Shown in pieces: positions 15,686 through 25,670 of a DNA stretch of 51,714 nt. Below the pieces are notes generated by a model, which searched no databases, was not told where the DNA came from, and was given only the letters and a program-made list of their open reading frames with translations. Source of the stretch: a bacterium (GTDB lineage Bacteria; Armatimonadota; UBA5829); assembly GCA_021373255.1 (NCBI GenBank), contig JAJFTD010000168.1, positions 1-51,714 on the forward strand. Reading direction: 5' to 3'. Made by a program: the position numbers and the translations under genes. The stretch's first letter is position 1. The number at the start of each line of letters is the position of its first letter.

Positions 15686-18253
15686 ATGAGTGGGATAATC
15701 CTCGATTGGAGCGAAGCGCTTGTAGAGAAGCTCGATGATTCCGAATCGCGTCCGGCCGGCGTTGCGGAGCCGCATTACACAGTGTCCGAGAAAGTGACCA
15801 TTTCTCGTGACAACGGCATATATGTCTACCATTTGCCGGACGATCAACTCGGTCAAGGATCATCGCTTGGAAACTCCCGCGTGTGGGCTGAGACAAAAGG
15901 GAACGGAGACATGCTGAACCTCTACAGCATCAAGGCTGCAAGACGAGTAGTCGGCGGCATGTCAATCACTTATCTTTTACCGTTCAGCGATCTATCAGTA
16001 TACGGCCAACATGAACTTGCTGATAGTCAGCACAAGAGTCTGAACCGTGCAATGCCTTCAGCTGTCGGAGCAATTCATCTACATCCCGCTTATCAGCAAA
16101 GGGAATTTGTGGTGGGAGACGGGCTGCATGTACTGGAGACATTTTTTGTCCCACGCACAGATGGATTGGATGATCCCGCGGCAGCACTTGAGGTGGTATC
16201 GTTATGGAACCGGACACCGCATCCCATAGAGATCGTGGTTGTTGCTTCCCTTAGCCTGCGCGGCCACACACCTATCGATATGCACGCACAGTTTGATAAA
16301 TCGCGAAATGCCATAATTACCTGGAACGAGACGAGCCAGGATATGGTGCGTGTGTTCGGGAGCATGGACAAGCCGAAACACTACTGGGCAACAAATGACA
16401 AGGACGCCGCGTATCACCCCAAGCACCCATTGCCTGATGAGACATCAGATACGGGTAATCTCACGGGAGCACTCCAGTTCAACCTGCTCCTTTATCCCGG
16501 CGCGCATCAGAAGGTTAGAGTCATTGCCGCATTTTCACACGATGGCAAAAGCAAAGCTTTGGATGAATTTGACCGGGCAAAAGGCGAAGAAGATGCTTTG
16601 AAGAAAACCATAAGTTACTATAGCTCGCAGCTAGCCAAATCAGTGATCGAGATGCCGGATGATATGCTCACCCATGGCGTTCAGTGGGCTAAATCGTGCT
16701 TGATACGTCCCGTATGTCACTACGAAATTGGCACGGCCTCCACGAATGACCCCGGAAACTCCAGCCATATAGTCGGGCGGGATACATGCTGGTACGTGCA
16801 CGGCTGCGATTTCATAGAGCCTGAATGGAGTTGCTCCATGCTCTCCATTCTGTCTCGATTCCAGCGAGCAGACGGGCTGATACCGGAATATATCGACGGT
16901 AATACCGGTGAAACCGAAGACTTCGGATTCAATATCAACGACGCCACTGCATTATTCATCATGGCTGTGGAGCACCACATAAAATGCACTGCGCATTGGC
17001 AGTGCTTGGAGAAGCTCTACGAATCAGCGAAAAAGGCAGGAGAGCTGATCCTGGGACAGATGAATGAGAATGGATTGGTAAAGTGCAATGCCATAGGTTT
17101 GGGGTCCAAGGCGATCTGTGGCTGGCGAAACGTGCTTCAAAACCAGTCTATCTCCGGGGTAGTCACCGAGATCAATTCCGAGTGCTTTGCTGCTCTGCGC
17201 TCCCTCAGCAACCTGGCTGAGATGGCGAGCAAGAAAGAGGACGCTAAGCGTTACAAAGAAGAAGCTGATGCACTCCGCGCTCGAATAAACAAGCATCTGG
17301 TGAACCCGGATAATGGCCTCTACGTGCTCAACATATCCCATGAAGGAAATACCTATACACAGACAACATGCGATCTGGTTTTTCCGCTGATCTGCGGGGT
17401 AGCAAACGAGAGCACAGCGGATAACGTGATTGCGCGGTTAGCCGAGGCTGACTTCATGACCGATGCCGGTATAAGGGTATTGCCGTCGGATGACCCGGAA
17501 TATGACCCATCTTTTGAATCCGGATGCATGGGAGGAGTCTGGCAGGGAGTCACATGGTGGTATGCTATGGCAGCCGCGGGTTCAGACCCGGAGATCATGG
17601 CAAACTCGCTGAGTAGGGCCTATTCTCATTATATATTGGATCCCAAAGCGTATAACACTGTGCCGGGGCAGTTCAGCGAATGGTCGGACGGCCAGACGCT
17701 TGTTAACCGTGGAATGCGGCTTTCTCCGTGGGATTCGCCGAGGTTTCTTTGGGCAGCGATAGAGGGGTTGGCCGGGTTAAAATTCAGAACCGATGGGATT
17801 GACTTGCAGCCCAACATACCTTTAGACTGGCAGTGGCTGCGCGTGCATGATGTAAAATACCGCGATGGCAGCATATCGCTGTTCCTAGCGCGTCACGCCG
17901 GCAGCATTCATGTCTTCTCGGCCAACTCACTCGACGGAAAGTTCGAACTGCACATTTACGATGAGGAGTTGGAGCACGCCCCAGAAGCAATTACTACCGG
18001 CATCACATGCTCGGCATTCCGAAAAAACAAAGAGACTCTCTTGTGCTTTGGAAGCAGCCTCAACAAGCCTGTTATGGGACCATTCCTTGCGCACCATTCG
18101 CTGAGTTCAGGAAAGCAATATCGAGTGCATGCTCTTGCAAGCCACCACCGTGAATGGCAAGATTTGGGCACGAATAAAGGTTCGGACCTTCAGAGACTCG
18201 CCGTGAGGATAGGTAAGCGCACATACGTCATTTACCGTTTCGAGGAGGTATAG
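15686..18253 (+). CDS. Six-hairpin glycosidase, amylo-1,6-glucosidase/GH63-like
   Basis: The 855-residue protein has no signal peptide, so it acts in the cytoplasm. An N-terminal beta-sandwich (about 1-280) precedes an alpha/alpha toroid (about 300-730). Signs of the toroid are IVGRDTCWYVHG, GLIPEYIDGNTGETEDFGFNINDA, VTEINSECFAALRSLSNLAEM, SFESGCMGGVWQGVTWWYAMAAA and the closing DSPRFLWAAIEGLAGL. The EINxxxxxALxxL stretch is typical of GDE/GH63-type glucosidases. Acidic residues E in PEYID and D/E in GVVTEI are catalytic candidates. It is 2 nt before an SMP-30 lactonase gene and presumably cotranscribed. The precise linkage and family remain open; trehalase-like or glucosidase activity is equally possible. 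Confidence 0.6.
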   Translation: MSGIILDWSEALVEKLDDSESRPAGVAEPHYTVSEKVTISRDNGIYVYHLPDDQLGQGSSLGNSRVWAETKGNGDMLNLYSIKAARRVVGGMSITYLLPFSDLSVYGQHELADSQHKSLNRAMPSAVGAIHLHPAYQQREFVVGDGLHVLETFFVPRTDGLDDPAAALEVVSLWNRTPHPIEIVVVASLSLRGHTPIDMHAQFDKSRNAIITWNETSQDMVRVFGSMDKPKHYWATNDKDAAYHPKHPLPDETSDTGNLTGALQFNLLLYPGAHQKVRVIAAFSHDGKSKALDEFDRAKGEEDALKKTISYYSSQLAKSVIEMPDDMLTHGVQWAKSCLIRPVCHYEIGTASTNDPGNSSHIVGRDTCWYVHGCDFIEPEWSCSMLSILSRFQRADGLIPEYIDGNTGETEDFGFNINDATALFIMAVEHHIKCTAHWQCLEKLYESAKKAGELILGQMNENGLVKCNAIGLGSKAICGWRNVLQNQSISGVVTEINSECFAALRSLSNLAEMASKKEDAKRYKEEADALRARINKHLVNPDNGLYVLNISHEGNTYTQTTCDLVFPLICGVANESTADNVIARLAEADFMTDAGIRVLPSDDPEYDPSFESGCMGGVWQGVTWWYAMAAAGSDPEIMANSLSRAYSHYILDPKAYNTVPGQFSEWSDGQTLVNRGMRLSPWDSPRFLWAAIEGLAGLKFRTDGIDLQPNIPLDWQWLRVHDVKYRDGSISLFLARHAGSIHVFSANSLDGKFELHIYDEELEHAPEAITTGITCSAFRKNKETLLCFGSSLNKPVMGPFLAHHSLSSGKQYRVHALASHHREWQDLGTNKGSDLQRLAVRIGKRTYVIYRFEEV

Positions 18254-18255
18254 CC

Positions 18256-19149
18256 GTGGTGAACGCAAAAGCCGATCTCTTAGTCGACGTCGCCTGCCAG
18301 ATCGGAGAGGCGCCGCTTTGGCATCCCGATGATAATCTACTCTATTGGGTGGACATTCCGCGAGGACGCATCTACACTTACAACCCGATATCCGAATCTT
18401 GCAGCCTGGCTTACGAAGGAAAGCCGATAAGTGGATTTACAATCCAGACAGATGGGTCGCTGCTTTTGTTTATGCACGCAGGGGAGATTGCCCTCTGGAA
18501 GTCCGGCGCAATTTCTACTCTTCTCGATTCAGTGCCCGGTTCACAAGACACAATCTTTAACGATACCATAGCTGATCCTGCGGGTCGGGTATTCGTTGGG
18601 ATGAAAGCCGGCAATCACCATAAAGGACAGCTCTATAGGTTAGATACTGACTGCTCACTGCACTTGTTGTTGGATGACCTCGAAGAGCCTAACGGCATGG
18701 GCTTCACGCCTGATCGTAAGGGCATGTATTTCACGGACACGCTGGCGCACAGCATTTATCTATTCAATTATGACCGAACCACTGGCTCAATATCAAACCA
18801 GTCCGTGTTTGTTCGAGTGCCGGATGAAGATGGGATACCGGACGGGCTGACGGTGGACGCTGAAGGGTGCGTGTGGTCCGCACACTGGGACGGCGGCTGT
18901 GTTGTCAGGTATTCTCCGGGTGGCAGAGAAATCGGCAGGATAGGGCTTCCCGTGACAAAAGTCTCCAGCATTACCTTCGGCGGCGCGGATTATTCGCAGC
19001 TTTACATTTCTACTAGCGGCGGCGACAACAGAGAAAGGGAAGGCGAACTGGCGGGCTCGCTCTTCGGATCGAAGACTCAAGTAAAAGGGGTGCCCGAGTT
19101 CCGATCTAGAGTGACTCCAAATGAAACACGGACCTGCTCTATCAGCTAA
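18256..19149 (+). CDS. SMP-30/gluconolactonase-family lactonase
   Basis: The 297-residue beta-propeller protein starts at GTG 18256, with GAGGAGGT at 18242-18249. Metal ligands expected for the family are present: E18 in QIGEAPLWHP, N in FNDTIADPAGR, N in LEEPNGMGF and D in IPDGLTVDAEG. YFTDTLAHSIY is the usual propeller strand. Members hydrolyse sugar lactones such as glucono- or galactonolactone, using a divalent metal. Following a glycosidase in the same operon, it could open lactones made from released sugar by a dehydrogenase elsewhere. The 3' end overlaps a terminator hairpin shared with the converging gene. Confidence 0.85.
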   Translation: MVNAKADLLVDVACQIGEAPLWHPDDNLLYWVDIPRGRIYTYNPISESCSLAYEGKPISGFTIQTDGSLLLFMHAGEIALWKSGAISTLLDSVPGSQDTIFNDTIADPAGRVFVGMKAGNHHKGQLYRLDTDCSLHLLLDDLEEPNGMGFTPDRKGMYFTDTLAHSIYLFNYDRTTGSISNQSVFVRVPDEDGIPDGLTVDAEGCVWSAHWDGGCVVRYSPGGREIGRIGLPVTKVSSITFGGADYSQLYISTSGGDNREREGELAGSLFGSKTQVKGVPEFRSRVTPNETRTCSIS

Positions 19150-19160
19150 GCAGGTCCGTG
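19127..19160 (-). terminator. Hairpin between convergent operons
   Basis: CACGGACCTGCT (19127-19138) pairs perfectly with 19149-19160 across a 10-nt loop. The hairpin includes the last codons and stop of the SMP-30 gene. Read on the minus strand, the stem is followed by TTTCATTT, so it best terminates the PoxB-like gene; on the plus strand no T-run follows. Confidence 0.7.
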
Positions 19161-19173
19161 ATATGCTCGGCCT

Positions 19174-20931
19174 CTACCGAATCAGCTCATCTACTTTGTC
19201 TCTAAATAGTGTCAGCGCGATACGAGGTCCCTCGGGTTGTCCACGCAACAAAGCCTCACTGAATCTGGCAGCTTGCTTCAGCTTGATCTTCGGTGGCATC
19301 GGAGGTTCATTGGGGTCCACCACCGCCTCCACAAGCGCCGGCCTATCCGATTCGAATGCGCGCTTTAAGGTATCATAGACATCTTCCGGTCGGTCCACAC
19401 GGTATCCTATGGCTCCGCAAGCTTCAGCGACTTTCACGAAGTCTATGGGCTGGAGTTCCACCACATATTCCGGGTTACCGAGGAAGACTATCTGCTCCCA
19501 CTTGATCTGGCCCAGAACGTTGTTCTTGATTACCACAATCTTAACCGGCAGGCTATACTTGACCGCCGTCGCAAGCTCTCCCATCAGCATAGTGAGCCCG
19601 CCATCACCGACAAATGCAATCGACTGCCTATCAGGGTGCGCAACCTTTGCGGCAATAGCATATGGCAGAGCCGGGGCCATTGTTGCAAGATTGCCGGAGC
19701 AGGAGAACATCTGGTCATTCTTGATCTTGTGATGCCGAGCAATCCAAGTCGTGATTGTGCCGGAGTCGGTGGAGATGATAGCGTTGTCATCGGCAATGTC
19801 AGAGATCGCCCGCGCCACAACCTGCGGCTTCATGGGGACGTCCTTGCGGGTTTCCCTGTCCTCCATCAACTCCCACCAGTCTTTCATTGCCTCCTGAAGC
19901 GATTTCAGGAAACGGCGGTCTTTCTTGCGGTTCAGCATGGGTCGGAGCATTTGCAGGGTCATTTTGGAGTCGCCGAGCAGCCCGACCTCAACGGGATACC
20001 GCAGGCCCATTCTACCGGGATTATGCTCGATCTGAATCCCGATTGCCTGATCGGGCTTTGGCATGTATTCCAGATAAGGGAATGAAGTCCCCACCATAAG
20101 CAGCACATCGCATTTGCTCATAGCATCTTCCGCCGGCGCTGTGCCCAGAAACCCGAGCCCGCCAAGCGAGAGCGGATGTGCATCTGGAATCACAGCCTTT
20201 CCCAAAAGGGCCTTTATGACTGGCGCGCCTATGATTTCCGCTACATCGATGAGCTCGTCCCTTGCTCCGAGTGCGCCCGCGCCACAGAGGATGACCGGCT
20301 TCTTGGCATTGTTGAGAATATGCGCGGCATGCAGAAGGTCTTCCTGGCAAGGAATCTGTTTCGGGCAGGGCTGCGCAGCCGAAGTATGCCCCGGCACATT
20401 GCGCTCACTACGACCGTTCTTAGTTGACTCGACCTGCAAGTCAACCGGGAACGTGATATGCGAAACGCACTGATTGTAAATTGCTTCACGGCAGGCGAGG
20501 TTGGTCAGTGCCCGCACATCACCGGCCCCCATTATGCGTTCGTCAAAGCACGCCACATCACGGAACAACGCCTCGGTATTGACATCCTGCTGGTATTGCT
20601 GGCCTATGAGATCGTGGTAGGTCATCCCCGTGATCGCCACGACGGGAGCATGGTCCATCTTCGCGTCATAAAGGCCGTTGAGCAGGTGAATTGCCCCTGG
20701 TCCGGAAGTCGCGAGGCAGCAACCCAGCTTGCCCGAGTATTTCGCGTATCCGCACGCCATGAACGCCGCCGCTTCCTCATGGCGCACCTGGATAAAGCGA
20801 ACTTTGTCGTTTTTCTCCCGAAACGCCTCGATTATCCCGTTAATCCCGTCGCCGGGCAAGCCGAATATCGTATCCACACCCCATTCCATCAGGGTCTCCA
20901 CCAACTGATCCGCTACGTCTTTTACCGCCAT
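19174..20931 (-). CDS. Thiamine-pyrophosphate enzyme, PoxB/pyruvate oxidase-like
   Basis: The 585-residue protein has the three-domain acetolactate-synthase/pyruvate-oxidase fold. The catalytic glutamate is E52 in VRHEEAAAFMACGYAK. The middle domain is FAD/nucleotide-binding like (ILCGAGALGAR). The TPP/Mg motif GDGGLTMLMGELATAVKY and NNVLGQ lies in the last third. The segments FLGNPEYVVELQPIDFVKVAEACG and NEPPMPPKI point to pyruvate oxidase/PoxB rather than biosynthetic acetolactate synthase. No small regulatory subunit is near. PoxB decarboxylates pyruvate to acetate, passing electrons to quinone. It is the third gene of an operon with a LarA-like racemase and an FAD/Fe-S dehydrogenase, matching a lactate-to-acetate route. 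Ribosome site GGAGGGG. Acetyl-phosphate-forming activity remains possible. Confidence 0.8.
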   Translation of the reverse strand: MAVKDVADQLVETLMEWGVDTIFGLPGDGINGIIEAFREKNDKVRFIQVRHEEAAAFMACGYAKYSGKLGCCLATSGPGAIHLLNGLYDAKMDHAPVVAITGMTYHDLIGQQYQQDVNTEALFRDVACFDERIMGAGDVRALTNLACREAIYNQCVSHITFPVDLQVESTKNGRSERNVPGHTSAAQPCPKQIPCQEDLLHAAHILNNAKKPVILCGAGALGARDELIDVAEIIGAPVIKALLGKAVIPDAHPLSLGGLGFLGTAPAEDAMSKCDVLLMVGTSFPYLEYMPKPDQAIGIQIEHNPGRMGLRYPVEVGLLGDSKMTLQMLRPMLNRKKDRRFLKSLQEAMKDWWELMEDRETRKDVPMKPQVVARAISDIADDNAIISTDSGTITTWIARHHKIKNDQMFSCSGNLATMAPALPYAIAAKVAHPDRQSIAFVGDGGLTMLMGELATAVKYSLPVKIVVIKNNVLGQIKWEQIVFLGNPEYVVELQPIDFVKVAEACGAIGYRVDRPEDVYDTLKRAFESDRPALVEAVVDPNEPPMPPKIKLKQAARFSEALLRGQPEGPRIALTLFRDKVDELIR

Positions 20932-20974
20932 TGATACCCCTCCAAATATACGCTGATCATCGCCAAATCAATCT

Positions 20975-23900
20975 TTAAGAGACACCATAACCTCGCTTCT
21001 TACTCCTCTTGTTGAGCAGCCGATTGATGCCGGCGCCGATCGCCAGTCCGCCGAGGGCAACGATCCCCGCCGTGATCCATTTGTAGCTGGGCGGACATGG
21101 GTTGCCATGCCGCACATACTCTTTTTCAGGGTAATCGGTTGCAATATTGCCGTCAGGATAGTCTATCGCCATCTTCATCACCTGTGCCAAGTGCATAGCC
21201 CGGCGGTCGGTAGTCTGCTGTATCTGCTCCCGGCAACTAAACCCGTTTGCGAGAACAATAGTGCTCTTATCCTGATCCCTGACAGCGGGCAGCAGCACTC
21301 TTTCACCGCACCCGATTGACACATCGTAGTGGTCTTTAGTGTATCCGAATGCACCCGCCATCCCACAGCAGCCAGAGTCCAGCATGTCGTAGTACAATCC
21401 CATCCGCTTCAGCACATTCTCTTCGGCCTCAAGGTTCAGCACGGTCTTGTGGTGGCAATGCGCGTGAACGACGGCCTTGCGGGGAAGTTTCGGAAGATCA
21501 ATATGCTTTGCATACTTGTCAAGAAACTCGCTCAGGAGATACGATTGCTGGTTCAGCCGCCAGGCATCCTCGTCATTGGGAAACAGGCCCATGAGTTCGT
21601 CGCGGAAAGTTGTAATACAACTCGGTTCGAGGCCTACGAGCAAGACCCCATCCCTTATGTCATCTTTGAGAGTGTCCATAATCTCCCGAAGCCGTTTCTT
21701 GGTCTGATCAAGCATGCCGTAGTCGTAAAGCGGGCGACCACAGCAGAGGTGCTTTTTAGGAATGGCAACGTTGAACCCCAACTCCTCGAGAACTTCCACG
21801 GCCGCCCTGGCGGTCTCAGGGAAGAAGTGGTTATTGAATGTATCCGGCCAGAACAGTATCCGCGAGGCCCCGACATTGCGCTCGCCTCTGCGTGTAAACC
21901 ATTGCCTGAAAGTCTCCGGCGCAAACGAGGGTATCTCTCGCTCGGGAGCCATGCCAAGCATCTTCTTAAAAAGAGTGCCGAATATCGGCGCATGTGTAAA
22001 GTAATTGGCAACCCCCGGAGCCAGTTCCGCCCAACGTGCCCATTTGAAAATCATACCGAATACATACGCTCTTAGCGGAAAGAGTCTGCCCTCGTAATAG
22101 TGAGCCAGGAACTCCGCCTTATAGGTGGCCATGTCCACATTCACGGGGCAGTCGCCCTTGCAACCTTTGCACGCGAGGCACAGATCGAGCGCGTCCCATA
22201 CGTGCTGGTTCCTCCAGCCGTTCTTCAGCGGGTCGCCTTCCAGCATCTCGAAGAGAAGCCTCGCCCGCCCACGCGTGCTATGCATCTCCTCCCGAGTTAC
22301 CATAAAACTCGGGCACATAGTCTCATGTTCGAGCCTGCGGCATTTACCCACGCCAACGCATCGCAGGGTTGCACGGCTGAATGAGTATTTATCGTCCGGG
22401 TACTTGAAATAAGTCTCATACTGAGGTGGATCGTAACCAGTGCCAAGTCGCAGATTCTGATCGATTTGATAAGGATCGACCACCTTGCCGGGGTTCATAC
22501 GCCAGTCCGGGTCCCACAGCGTTTTGAACTCCCTGAATGCTTGAATCAGCTCATCGCCGAACATTTTGGGCAGGAACATGGCTCTCGATTGCCCGTCTCC
22601 GTGCTCGCCAGAAAGAGAACCGCTGTAGCGCAGCACGAGGTCAGTTGCCTCGTCCATGAACCGGCGATAAGTCTCTACTCCATGCTCTGTGAAGAAGTCA
22701 AAATCTATGCGTGTGTGTATACAGCCCTGACCGAAGTGGCCGTAGAGGTCACACTTGTAGCCGAACTTATCCAGCAGGCCGCGGAGGTCACGCAGGTAGC
22801 TTCCAACTTTCTCCGGGGGCACTGCCGAATCTTCCCAGCCCTCCCAGGTCAAGTCTTCTCCCGGTACCAAAGCGGTCGCGCCAAGCCCGGACTCGCGTAT
22901 TGTCCAGAGCATCTTTTCTTGCTTGCGGTCGTCAAAGAGCTTCATTGATGGTGAATTCGGCTGTTTCTTGAGCTCTTCCATGAGATTGCTTGCTTTAGCG
23001 TCAGATTCTTCGCGAGTCTCTCCTCCAAACTCCACCATCAGCCATCCGCTGCCTTCCGGGAGCAGGACAACATCCTCCGGATGCAGGCCTTTTTTCTTCA
23101 TGTCGGCGATCAAGCGATCGTCTATACCCTCAAGTGCAATAGGCTCGCTCGCGAGGACTTCCATAACGTGATCACCAGCTTGGAAGACATCCGGATACCC
23201 CAACACAAGCAGCGACCGGACAGGCGGACTGTATACCAGCCTGCATGTCGCCTCCAAAACAACAACGCAAGTGCCCTCGGAACCAACTAGAGCCCGCGCA
23301 ACGTTAAAGCCGTTTTCAGGAAGCAGTTGATCGAGGTTGTAACCCGATACTCGCCGAGGTATATTCGGATACTTCTCTCGAATGAGATCGGCATACTTAT
23401 CTCTGATAGACTTTAGACCGGCGTATATCTCTCCCTTCCGCCCGCCCTCGCTGATAATACACTCAAGTTCCGCATCGCTCGTCGGCCCGACTTTCATTCT
23501 TACGCCATCGCATGTGAGTATATCAAGCTCCTCGATGTTATCGACTGTCTTACCGCCCATAACCGAGTGGATGCCGCAAGAGTTGTTGCCGATCATACCA
23601 CCGATGCAGTTGTGCGTATGAGTGGCCGGGTCGGGAGCAAACGTGAGGTGATATGTTTCGGCTGCACTGCGCAGACTATCAAGGATGATGCCCGGTTGGA
23701 CCCGAGCGATTTTGCGCTGCGGGTCCAGTTCCAGGATGTTGTTCAGGTACTTCGAGAAATCAATGACCACCGCCGTGTTGCAGCACTGCCCGGCGAGGCT
23801 CGTCCCTCCGGCCCGCGAGAGTACGGAAACCCCATACTTATGGCATACCGCTATCGTCTTTACAACGTCGTCTAAATCTTTGGGAATAACAACTCCTATG

Positions 23901-24154
23901 GGCACCTGCCGGTAGTTGGAGCCATCCGTCGAGTACATCGCCCTGCTACCGTCATCAAACCGCACCTCGCCACTTATACTACCGATGAGTTCCTGTTCAA
24001 GCAGCTTTATCGATTTTACAGTCGCGGGCGATGGATACGGTTCCATCTCAAGCCTGTGTTCATGTATGATCTCCTGCCCAGCCACCCTCGTATGAGCGGC
24101 ATCTTTGCGCGCTGGTGGTATTATCTTAGTCTTCTGCTGTTTGATCGGCGTCAT
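20975..24154 (-). CDS. FAD-linked oxidase fused to Fe-S/CCG domains (D-lactate dehydrogenase-like), membrane-anchored
   Basis: The 1059-residue protein starts at ATG 24154, with GGGAGGAG just upstream. A longer frame to 24376 is only the overlap with the previous gene. Domains: FAD_binding_4 (about 60-250: PIGVVIPKDLDDVVK, SRAGGTSLAGQCCN, NNSCGIHSVMGG); FAD-oxidase C-domain (about 270-560, SGSLSGEHGDGQ); a 2x[4Fe-4S] region with CVGVGKCRRLEHETMC and CLACKGCKGDCP; two CCG half-domains (LCCGRPLYD, SGCCGMAGAFG). It ends with one hydrophobic helix (WITAGIVALGGLAIGAGINRLL) and a basic tail, so it is tethered at the membrane. Such fusions oxidise D-lactate or other 2-hydroxy acids and feed quinone. 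It overlaps the LarA-like gene by 29 nt. Confidence 0.88.
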   Translation of the reverse strand: MTPIKQQKTKIIPPARKDAAHTRVAGQEIIHEHRLEMEPYPSPATVKSIKLLEQELIGSISGEVRFDDGSRAMYSTDGSNYRQVPIGVVIPKDLDDVVKTIAVCHKYGVSVLSRAGGTSLAGQCCNTAVVIDFSKYLNNILELDPQRKIARVQPGIILDSLRSAAETYHLTFAPDPATHTHNCIGGMIGNNSCGIHSVMGGKTVDNIEELDILTCDGVRMKVGPTSDAELECIISEGGRKGEIYAGLKSIRDKYADLIREKYPNIPRRVSGYNLDQLLPENGFNVARALVGSEGTCVVVLEATCRLVYSPPVRSLLVLGYPDVFQAGDHVMEVLASEPIALEGIDDRLIADMKKKGLHPEDVVLLPEGSGWLMVEFGGETREESDAKASNLMEELKKQPNSPSMKLFDDRKQEKMLWTIRESGLGATALVPGEDLTWEGWEDSAVPPEKVGSYLRDLRGLLDKFGYKCDLYGHFGQGCIHTRIDFDFFTEHGVETYRRFMDEATDLVLRYSGSLSGEHGDGQSRAMFLPKMFGDELIQAFREFKTLWDPDWRMNPGKVVDPYQIDQNLRLGTGYDPPQYETYFKYPDDKYSFSRATLRCVGVGKCRRLEHETMCPSFMVTREEMHSTRGRARLLFEMLEGDPLKNGWRNQHVWDALDLCLACKGCKGDCPVNVDMATYKAEFLAHYYEGRLFPLRAYVFGMIFKWARWAELAPGVANYFTHAPIFGTLFKKMLGMAPEREIPSFAPETFRQWFTRRGERNVGASRILFWPDTFNNHFFPETARAAVEVLEELGFNVAIPKKHLCCGRPLYDYGMLDQTKKRLREIMDTLKDDIRDGVLLVGLEPSCITTFRDELMGLFPNDEDAWRLNQQSYLLSEFLDKYAKHIDLPKLPRKAVVHAHCHHKTVLNLEAEENVLKRMGLYYDMLDSGCCGMAGAFGYTKDHYDVSIGCGERVLLPAVRDQDKSTIVLANGFSCREQIQQTTDRRAMHLAQVMKMAIDYPDGNIATDYPEKEYVRHGNPCPPSYKWITAGIVALGGLAIGAGINRLLNKRSKKRGYGVS

Positions 24155-25439
24155 TGTTCTCCTCCCATATGACATTGCCACTATCATCAAACGGCATCTC
24201 GCGGGGTTCATCCAGAACCGTAGTGCTGGGATCTTGCACAGCCTCGGGTATGAGAGCTTCGGAGACATACATAACATCCAGATTTCTGGTGTTGTGTATG
24301 CGCACGATTCTTCGCGGTTCGTCCGACCCTTCGGGAAGCGCGGAATACAGCGCCACCTCCATTGCCTCACGATCATCCTCTAAGGCAAGAGGCAGCTGTC
24401 CTTCGATCAGGCGGCCATTGGGGTCACGACCTGTCAGCAGATTGGTGTAGCAGGCGTTCCAGTCGAACTTGCCGACGAGTTTCTTTGTGGTGAAGTCCGC
24501 AAGCCCCACGCCTATTCCATTCCCAAGGCTTTCTTTGGTAAGATCGAAGACCACGATCCTGCGAAAATCAGGAGTATGCGGCCCGCCCTTGATGCGCCAG
24601 AAACCGATCACGTTTGGGTCCATTCCGGAGCCTGCGATGCTCTTGCCGATCATGTCAATTGCCAACACATGCAGATGATCGAATGGAATGATTTTCATTA
24701 GGCTCTTTTGAAGAACGAGCAGCCGTCTGTCTGTCTCCTCGAACTTGTCAGGTGGGACAACTTCTATCGTGTGGGGTTTGTTGTAGCCATTACTTACTAC
24801 TGCCACGCCGGCAATGATGTTGGAATTGGGGATCGTAACCTTCGGCACCAGCCTGACCGACTCGGCAAGGCCATGAGAGTGAGCCCATGCCGGTCCGGCT
24901 TGAGCCCCGCAGCCGATAGTCACCATCTTCATTAGCCCCGAGGCGATATCTTCGGTGAGTACGGGATGCACAGCCTCCTGGCTGACCACAATGGTGGCGT
25001 CTGCTTCATAGGCATCTTTGTTAAAATGAGCCTCTGCACCATTTTCGGCTTTGCCCAAGGCAACAGTATCCAGAGTAACCTTAACAGGTACTCCGAAGCT
25101 CTCCTCGGTTATGCCATGGAGAGTAAGCACTTCCCGCTGGCCCTCCACAGTCGCTCCTCCGTGGCTGCCTATTGCATTAAAAAGGAAAGGTTCGGCGCCC
25201 ACATCTTTCACTGCGTCGATGATACCGCGCAAGATCTCATGGTAGTGGCCAATGCCGCGGTCACCGACCGATATCGCCACCCTCTTTCCTTCCGATAAAT
25301 GGCTCAGCACTTTGCTGCTTTTAAACTGTTCAACGACATGATTCTGAACGTCGTCTATATGCTCATCAGGTAAGTACTGTCTGACCTTAACGAACTTCGG
25401 CAGTTCACAACGGGGATACTTCACTTGGCTTACCTCCAT
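24126..25439 (-). CDS. LarA-like (DUF2088) nickel-pincer racemase family protein
   Basis: The 437-residue protein starts at ATG 25439 (TTG at 25451 is an alternative). It belongs to the lactate racemase LarA superfamily: NAIGSHGGATVEGQ carries the first family histidine; EAVHPVLTEDIASGLMKM contains the histidine and lysine that in LarA hold and bind the nickel-pincer nucleotide (aligned by eye; spacing slightly longer). GCGAQAGPAWAHSHGL follows. LarA interconverts L- and D-lactate; relatives act on other 2-hydroxy acids. Cofactor genes larB, larC and larE are not in the window. It heads the operon with the FAD/Fe-S dehydrogenase and PoxB-like enzyme. ATG lies 1 nt after the stop of a broken DUF362 gene. 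Confidence 0.8.
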   Translation of the reverse strand: MEVSQVKYPRCELPKFVKVRQYLPDEHIDDVQNHVVEQFKSSKVLSHLSEGKRVAISVGDRGIGHYHEILRGIIDAVKDVGAEPFLFNAIGSHGGATVEGQREVLTLHGITEESFGVPVKVTLDTVALGKAENGAEAHFNKDAYEADATIVVSQEAVHPVLTEDIASGLMKMVTIGCGAQAGPAWAHSHGLAESVRLVPKVTIPNSNIIAGVAVVSNGYNKPHTIEVVPPDKFEETDRRLLVLQKSLMKIIPFDHLHVLAIDMIGKSIAGSGMDPNVIGFWRIKGGPHTPDFRRIVVFDLTKESLGNGIGVGLADFTTKKLVGKFDWNACYTNLLTGRDPNGRLIEGQLPLALEDDREAMEVALYSALPEGSDEPRRIVRIHNTRNLDVMYVSEALIPEAVQDPSTTVLDEPREMPFDDSGNVIWEENNDADQTAED

Positions 25440-25440
25440 A

Positions 25441-25670
25441 TTATCCCGCAAAGTTTCTCGCTAGCATCCGTATGTTCTGCCAATCCAGAGAGAACAGCCT
25501 GGCCACGGTAATATCCACCGCTACCGGATCGTCTGCCGCCAAAATGTATCCCCACCAGAACGGCTTGCTAGACCCAAGTCTTGCAGGCGCACGATATCGG
25601 ATCTACGAAGTGAGTTTTTGCTTTGGGGCAGTTGATGAAGACATCGATGTGTTCAAGGACTTCCTTTCAA
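25441..25670 (-). pseudogene. DUF362 protein remnant
   Basis: Minus-strand fragments match DUF362. EVLEHIDVFINCPKAKTH (about 25665-25610) carries the conserved FINxPKxKTH block, then a stop interrupts it. Further on, in a frame ending at the TAA at 25443-25441, WWGYILAADDPVAVDITVARL matches the family's C-terminal DDPVAVD motif. The stretch between the two blocks is missing and frames are shifted, so the gene is dead. It directly precedes the lactate operon, which may have been read from its promoter. Confidence 0.7.

Follow-up and report, generated by a model that had tools for sequence, protein, structure and literature searches.

What pathway do three adjacent genes of a bacterial contig encode, and why does a gene of the LarA family stand first among them? 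The window, by which we mean the whole stretch of 51,714 nucleotides (nts) that was analyzed, is contig JAJFTD010000168.1 of assembly GCA_021373255.1, from a bacterium of the phylum Armatimonadota. On its minus strand the open frames for a LarA-like protein, a protein with flavin adenine dinucleotide (FAD) and iron-sulfur (Fe-S) domains, and a PoxB-like thiamine pyrophosphate (TPP) enzyme follow one another head to tail. A sequence-only reading had taken these genes to be one operon for the racemization, oxidation, and decarboxylation of lactate to acetate. We propose, with moderate confidence, that the operon serves to respire a 2-hydroxy acid in both of its stereoisomers and that a subclade of LarA homologs (LarAHs) replaced an enolase-type enzyme in it both here and in the Chloroflexota.

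In the proposed pathway, the LarA-like enzyme, with a nickel pincer (NPN) cofactor from LarB, LarE, and LarC, would interconvert the two C2 epimers of the substrate. The FAD/Fe-S enzyme, predicted to be attached to the membrane, would convert the (R), or D, form by oxidation into the 2-oxo acid, with quinone as the electron acceptor, and the PoxB-like enzyme would decarboxylate the 2-oxo acid oxidatively (pyruvate to acetate, if the substrate is lactate) with a second reduction of quinone. The FAD/Fe-S enzyme would oxidize one form only, and the first gene would bring in the other. In many relatives the first step would be carried out by an enolase-superfamily enzyme of the mandelate racemase type (the family of PDB entry 3cyj), and in a few it would perhaps be bypassed by an L-specific flavin mononucleotide (FMN) dehydrogenase.

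A conserved FAD/Fe-S and PoxB unit with a variable third gene

We compared 85 loci with homologs of the FAD/Fe-S protein, 5 from the phylum of the window (L108 to L112) and the best 80 named of at least 589. They span Chloroflexota, Planctomycetota, Acidobacteriota, Actinomycetota, Pseudomonadota, and others; the 80 named loci are rich in Streptomyces, and many of the contigs are short. Gene calls in these loci simply took the longest frame, and PoxB was counted as present at ≥38% identity and >300 bits. Fifteen more distant loci (L113 to L127) were kept outside the 85, and L113, L114, L117, L118, L121, and L127 were used in a larger FAD/Fe-S tree.

A PoxB gene is within reach in 40 of the 85 loci; in 35 it is on the same strand as the FAD/Fe-S gene and no more than 1.5 kb from it, as it is in 24 of the 60 loci that have ≥3.5 kb of sequence on either side. 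An enolase-superfamily gene with mandelate racemase domains is the third gene, placed between or beside the other two, in 27 of the 85 loci, 25 of which also have PoxB. These enolase-type genes are 52 to 70% identical to that of L157 (L157 being counted) and are close to PDB 3cyj (E = 1.2e-135), an enolase-superfamily protein of Rubrobacter xylanophilus for which we know of no function. The three genes were seen in six arrangements. The order enolase, FAD/Fe-S, PoxB occurs in L164 and L172, with the PoxB gene of L164 ∼8.9 kb off.

In 5 of the 85 loci (L109, L173, L177, L179, and L192) the third gene encodes an LldD-like FMN dehydrogenase, and three of these loci have PoxB. Four of the FMN genes were scanned against the L-lactate dehydrogenase subfamily: those of L109 and L192, which have no PoxB on their contigs, passed the cutoff, and those of L173 and L177 failed it. 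No locus combined an enolase-type gene with an FMN gene, but ∼1.6 such loci would be expected from counts of 27 and 5, so this absence is weak evidence alone. BLAST found a LarAH in none of the 85 loci.

The gene order of the window is shared by L172 (enolase, FAD/Fe-S, PoxB) and by L177 (FMN, FAD/Fe-S, PoxB). The FAD/Fe-S proteins of these two loci are sisters (support of 99 in the larger quick tree and 96/98 in the other tree), and, judged from the sequences, L172 and L177 differ by a swap of the third gene. The PoxB proteins of the two loci, however, are in different parts of the PoxB tree; thus, the whole operons did not simply descend together. A LarAH, an enzyme of the mandelate racemase type, and an L-2-hydroxyacid dehydrogenase have the stereocenter of a 2-hydroxy acid in common. 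The simplest account is that the FAD/Fe-S enzyme would use one form and the first gene would supply the other.

Probable replacement of the enolase-type enzyme by a LarAH

LarAHs are present in 98 of 350 Chloroflexota genomes; we checked 30 of the loci with short flanks and 20 with flanks of up to ∼8 kb. The LarAHs closest to that of the window are in genomes G619 (52% identity) and G475 (48%). G475 has, all in one direction, PoxB, the LarAH, a gene of the M24 metallopeptidase family, and an FAD/Fe-S gene whose product is 61% identical to that of the window. G619 has PoxB, a gene of the isochorismatase family, and the LarAH. The trio on which the sequence-only reading was built was therefore found together in another phylum, and two of its families were found together a second time; the remaining 18 of the 20 neighborhoods had neither partner. 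That the LarAH of the window is unique in standing beside these partners, a conclusion suggested by the lack of these partners in 40 LarAH loci of its phylum and of the LarAH in 80 FAD/Fe-S loci, was overturned by this search. Given G475, the trio recurs beyond chance, and the operon is conserved more widely than was seen from the window alone.

The LarAH of G475 sits between PoxB and FAD/Fe-S, the slot of the enolase-type gene in L156, L157, and L160. In a tree of 77 LarAHs, those of the window, G475, and G619 belong to one set of five (100/99) with L077 and L078 of the window's phylum; a subset of four has support of 97/91, and the order inside it is unsettled. The partner proteins branch at separate places among enolase-linked ones. 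The PoxB protein of the window has L111 and the enolase-linked L110 as sisters (100/98), and that of G475 has the enolase-linked L185 (100/99); the FAD/Fe-S protein of G475 groups, in its own tree, as sister to those of the enolase-linked L160 and L167 (96/86). No close enolase-type ortholog was found in the window's genome (best identity, 26%) or in G475 and G619 (best, 36%, paralogs). The LarAH clade thus appears at two places among enolase-linked units, from which it follows that it replaced the enolase-type enzyme twice or that the operon was mixed by transfer. Replacement, perhaps on two occasions, is probable, and the two enzymes, unrelated in fold and chemistry, seem to be exchangeable.

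We also put forward, tentatively, a broader proposal. There may be a widespread respiratory unit, so far undescribed, that uses racemic 2-hydroxy acids and in which two unrelated racemase folds, the 3cyj-type enolase acting by proton abstraction and the NPN-dependent LarAH acting by hydride transfer, invert C2 alike and substitute for one another, with the L-specific FMN dehydrogenase as a third solution. If true, this unit predicts the function of two uncharacterized enzyme families at once. Exchange within one conserved operon would leave the group-22-like LarAHs and the 3cyj-type proteins with a small number of 2-hydroxy acids as shared candidate substrates, and the neighboring dehydrogenase would be a ready coupled assay for both. 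Evolution would here, clearly, have exchanged two inversions of a single carbon that differ in mechanism.

Identity of the three proteins

The LarA-like protein is over the Pfam cutoff for DUF362 and under it for Lar_N (20.5 versus 23.3). It aligns with positions 1 to 390 of the 392 of NCBIfam model NF052515 (NPN_iso_grp_22; nickel pincer cofactor-dependent isomerase, group 22), scoring 14.4 bits under the cutoff; the LarAH of G475 scores 377.5. The lactate racemase model NF033504 did not match the protein at an E value of 1e-3. Residues R65, H97, H162, K175, H191, and K270 are invariant across 16 aligned rows, and their order and approximate spacing are those of the residues with which LarA binds NPN and catalyzes; the alignment onto LarA covers the N-terminal part to H162, and residues beyond it were placed by order and spacing. 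H97, H162, K175, H191, and K270 would be the catalytic His pair and the NPN-binding Lys and His of the superfamily, kept as they are in group 22. H162 corresponds to His174 of LarA by way of the genome's other LarAH, which itself aligns with LarA of L. plantarum. Of the candidate equivalents of Arg75 and Asp72, R65 is invariant but falls in a different column, and D64 of the window is S in the other 15 rows.

After H162 the window has P163-V164 where lactate racemases usually have F-F, followed in those enzymes by W and E/Q (PMC11770544). The loop, H-P-V-L in the window versus H-T-x-F in group 22, and the FAD/Fe-S and PoxB partners set the protein apart from that group. H-P is found in the LarAHs of the window, G475, G619, and L078, and H-T in nearly all others shown. 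Mapping the protein onto LarA by a PDB profile search was abandoned, since the profile gave nearly only TAL repeats, which are false matches, and the single protein gave none. A first scan of genome contigs with the LarA-like protein alone found no relative, and neither did a scan of viral contigs.

In the genome, larC adjoins larB on contig C173, and larE is on contig C129; all are over their curated cutoffs. The absence of these genes, which would have spoken against the sequence-only reading, was thus not observed; with all three present, the NPN cofactor can probably be made, by the genome's own LarB, LarC, and LarE. A weak second LarB match (L237; C3:151-612) has two in-frame stops and is under the cutoff. 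The second LarAH, on contig C86 (L001:832-2097), is closest to the malate racemase LarAH6 (270.3 versus a cutoff of 500) and is flanked by genes that look, by eye, SDR-like and LacI-like.

The FAD/Fe-S protein carries its FAD and Fe-S/CCG domains in one chain and, judged by these domains, may be of the Dld-II D-lactate dehydrogenase type (SO_1521). Its best NCBIfam match is YdiJ (NF049975), at 518.6 bits against a cutoff of 1350; it is 25.8% identical to E. coli YdiJ and up to 65% identical to proteins of other phyla. Its C terminus, read by eye, is a hydrophobic stretch with a basic tail, plausibly a membrane tail. Of the earlier description as a membrane-anchored protein of the D-lactate dehydrogenase type, the domains and, plausibly, the tail agree with our results, and lactate as its substrate is unsupported. 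The active-site residue W440 was considered as an indicator of substrate and discarded as nondiscriminating: it is also W in two Paraburkholderia/Burkholderia relatives and is A in YdiJ.

The nearest solved structure to the PoxB-like protein is E. coli PoxB (3ey9; E = 8.7e-107), to which it is 36% identical. It is under every cutoff for pyruvate oxidase or pyruvate dehydrogenase (quinone): PRK08611 (618.9 versus 742), PRK09124 (462.4 versus 792), and PRK08273 (622.7 versus 724). It is probably a 2-oxoacid (pyruvate):quinone oxidoreductase.

Substrate and alternative explanations

Several results weigh against the interpretation of the operon given above. Neither FAD/Fe-S nor PoxB partners occur in any of the 40 LarAH neighborhoods of the window's phylum, and L077 and L078, the clade mates of the window's LarAH, are without them. 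G475 has the sole further full trio with a LarAH that was found, and there the M24 gene lies between the LarAH and FAD/Fe-S genes; in G619 the LarAH reading has an in-frame stop, and its draft genome has no FAD/Fe-S match. The window's own FAD/Fe-S protein is placed only weakly with L156 (82/30; 91 in the larger quick tree). No other family of the unit is in reach in 41 of the 85 loci, some with short contigs. The best NCBIfam matches of the enolase-type enzyme, all under cutoff, are talarate/galactarate, arabinonate, and rhamnonate dehydratases, and the enzyme may be a dehydratase. Lastly, an AlphaFold2 model of the LarA-like protein made without relatives was useless (predicted local distance difference test score [pLDDT], 33; predicted template modeling score [pTM], 0.24). 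Our best reading is nevertheless that the sequence-only interpretation is right in kind, that is, that the genes encode a putative racemase or epimerase, an (R)-2-hydroxyacid:quinone dehydrogenase, and a 2-oxoacid oxidative decarboxylase.

As to the substrate, lactate is the simplest candidate and the narrow version of the pathway proposed above: the LarAH would be a lactate racemase, the FAD/Fe-S protein a D-lactate dehydrogenase, and PoxB would take pyruvate to acetate. The solved structures that come nearest to the PoxB-like protein are pyruvate oxidases, the FAD/Fe-S protein matches LctD and mitochondrial D-lactate dehydrogenase chains, the FMN genes of L109 and L192 pass the L-lactate dehydrogenase cutoff, and enzymes of the Dld-II type serve for D-lactate in Shewanella (PMC5432575) and Desulfovibrio (PMC4481167). 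We still regard lactate, the substrate named in the sequence-only reading, as possible but doubtful. The LarA-like protein has an affinity to group 22 and not to the lactate racemase model, with P-V replacing F-F; the PoxB-like protein reaches no pyruvate oxidase cutoff; and BLAST found no homolog of the E. coli lactate permease LldP in the 85 loci. In addition, a racemase that works by proton abstraction requires its substrate to have an activated alpha-hydrogen (PMC7583248), which makes lactate a less likely substrate for a family that can take the place of such an enzyme. The substrate could instead be a sugar acid (tetronate, glycerate, or aldonate), with the LarAH and the enolase-type enzyme as C2 epimerases and the TPP enzyme acting on a hydroxylated 2-oxo acid. 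Group-22 LarAHs were matched in 63 of 291 genomes of the window's phylum at an E value of 1e-3 and in 55 of 291 over the cutoff; PdxA adjoins them in 6 of the 40 loci (L039, L047, L060, L068, L069, and L072), three of which have a YgbK-type (DUF1537) kinase by BLAST. Pfam tallies, which cover the 25 commonest families and are not tied to individual loci, gave 6 PdxA and 5 kinase domains among 136 LarAH neighbors. These neighbors suggest that the PdxA-linked LarAHs act on four-carbon acid sugars, not lactate, and characterized LarAHs epimerize deoxy-tetronates and racemize glycerate (PMC11770544). The enolase-type enzyme is closest to acid-sugar dehydratases, an SGL lactonase gene is next to the operon, and glycoside hydrolase genes are close to a few of the units: an MGH1-like gene in the case of the window, L160, and L282 and a GH15-like gene in the case of L110 and L157. 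However, the PdxA-linked LarAHs are placed in clades other than that of the window, no homolog of PdxA or YgbJKLMN was found in the window or the 80 FAD/Fe-S loci, and no SGL gene was found near the FAD/Fe-S and PoxB unit elsewhere. On balance, we regard a sugar acid as no more and no less likely a substrate than lactate.

The swaps might reflect a shared end product and not a shared reaction, if the first gene feeds pyruvate or the substrate of the FAD/Fe-S enzyme by lineage-specific reactions such as dehydration by the enolase-type enzyme. The dehydratase matches named above would fit, as would the enolase-type sequence of L157, which has the KxK, acidic, and His residues that we take to be the motif common to mandelate racemase and acid-sugar dehydratases. 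But LarA is known to invert C2, not to dehydrate, and the LarAH of G475 is in the same slot as the enolase-type gene of L156 and L157; we consider this explanation improbable. Finally, the FAD/Fe-S protein could be a D-2-hydroxyglutarate dehydrogenase of the YdiJ type. YdiJ is its best NCBIfam match, and HglS-type (2-oxoadipate dioxygenase) genes are among the immediate neighbors of FAD/Fe-S family loci (5 of 146 in the Pfam tally), from which some members of the family may be D-2-hydroxyglutarate dehydrogenases. For the protein of the window this is very unlikely: its score is far under the YdiJ cutoff, its identity to YdiJ is 25.8%, 2-oxoglutarate as the 2-oxo acid would hardly account for a PoxB-like partner, and the HGR residues Y-F are absent from the LarAH.

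Relation to known systems

In Pseudomonas putida, the mandelate pathway genes mdlA-mdlB-mdlC encode a racemase, a 2-hydroxyacid dehydrogenase, and a TPP-dependent 2-oxoacid decarboxylase in one cluster. The unit of the window would share this logic, and many of its relatives use an enolase-superfamily enzyme, as MdlA is (the comparison is of gene families only). In contrast to mdlABC, the window has an NPN-dependent LarAH for the racemase, an FAD/Fe-S and not an FMN dehydrogenase, and a TPP enzyme that is PoxB-like and not benzoylformate decarboxylase-like. The sequence-only reading knew of no described operon with exactly these genes; the mandelate logic, and a region of Desulfovibrio for both lactates, were already known. 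Our searches of open-access full texts turned up no account of the three genes as a unit or of the third-gene swap, subscription papers and supplements being outside that scope. The literature consulted gave neither a substrate for group-22 LarAHs nor a function for 3cyj-type proteins.

The Desulfovibrio vulgaris region, DVU3025-3033, takes both D- and L-lactate to acetate and has a Dld-II type D-lactate dehydrogenase with FAD and Fe-S (PMC4481167). Where the window has a racemase, this region has a second dehydrogenase, specific for the L form; PFOR/Pta/Ack take the place of PoxB, and a permease is present (PMC4481167). That a LarAH can stand beside an FAD or Fe-S dehydrogenase is also known, since oxidoreductases of COG0247 and COG0277 adjoin 4 and 5 LarAH groups, respectively (Desguin et al. 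2020, PMC7583248); the available portion of the main text of that paper mentions neither a PoxB partner nor an exchange with an enolase-type enzyme. Enolase-superfamily expansions that give access to both stereoisomers have been proposed for SAR202 Chloroflexota (PMC6946804).

Gene layout and neighboring genes

Coordinates are collected in Table 1. Those of the sequence-only reading, the consecutive order of the genes, and the overlap of the first two were confirmed from the open frames.

TABLE 1 Features of the operon and its surroundings in the window
Feature	Coordinates	Strand	Basis or remark
LarA-like NPN isomerase gene, group-22-like	24126..25439	minus	NF052515, 385.6 bits (cutoff, 400); invariant residues; clade with G475 and G619 genes
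Putative FAD/Fe-S 2-hydroxyacid dehydrogenase gene with C-terminal hydrophobic tail	20975..24154	minus	Pfam FAD_binding_4, FAD-oxidase_C, Fer4_8, CCG
PoxB-like TPP enzyme gene	19174..20931	minus	Pfam TPP_enzyme N/M/C; 3ey9; identity to E. coli PoxB
Overlap of LarA-like and FAD/Fe-S genes, 29 nt	24126..24154	minus	
Terminator-like hairpin 3' of PoxB-like gene, 13 pairs, 8 of them G-C	19127..19160	minus	
MGH1-like glycoside hydrolase gene	15686..18253	plus	SGL gene between hydrolase and operon; convergent with operon; membership in the system uncertain

The LarA-like frame (24126-25451) has three candidate starts, TTG at 25451 (the first start codon), ATG at 25439, and GTG at 25424, the last with GGAGG 8 bases upstream (25437-25433). 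The FAD/Fe-S frame as listed is 20975-24376, but homology starts only at about residue 45 to 52 counted from ATG 24154, which is directly preceded by GGAGGAG and is, for that reason, the better start. The PoxB-like ATG, preceded by GGAGGGG, follows after a gap of 43 nt; both of these genes have good ribosome-binding sites.

Behind the PoxB-like gene, the hairpin is followed by TTTCATTT. Overall, the terminator scan found 6 candidates versus 6.2 in shuffles, that is, no excess, so the call of a terminator at 19160-19127 rests on stem length and position. No promoter-like site was found 5' of the LarA-like gene; the 560-base gap upstream of the operon contains an imperfect 23-nt palindrome (25627-25664), which may be a regulator site or chance. 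The operon has a G+C content of 54 to 55% versus 48 to 53% in its surroundings, a difference too weak to claim acquisition by transfer.

Among related genomes, those of the window's genus and family in the set have no group-22 LarAH beyond weak matches and no close FAD/Fe-S homolog. A distant GlcD-like protein (24 to 29% identity) occurs in 3 of the 40 LarAH neighborhoods of the phylum.

Some other genes are found near the unit. The MGH1-like hydrolase has 36% identical relatives there in one enolase-type locus (L160) and one LarAH-type locus (L282), and the GH15-like gene of L110, of the glucodextranase kind, has a homolog in L157. Three LarAH- or FMN-type loci have a gene like M24 creatinase/prolidase close to the unit (L282:9873-11126, L281:15096-16322, and L109:4177-5322). 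A short-chain dehydrogenase gene (L156:16900-17925; relatives 52 to 72% identical) is near the unit in 19 of the 85 loci, L156 included.

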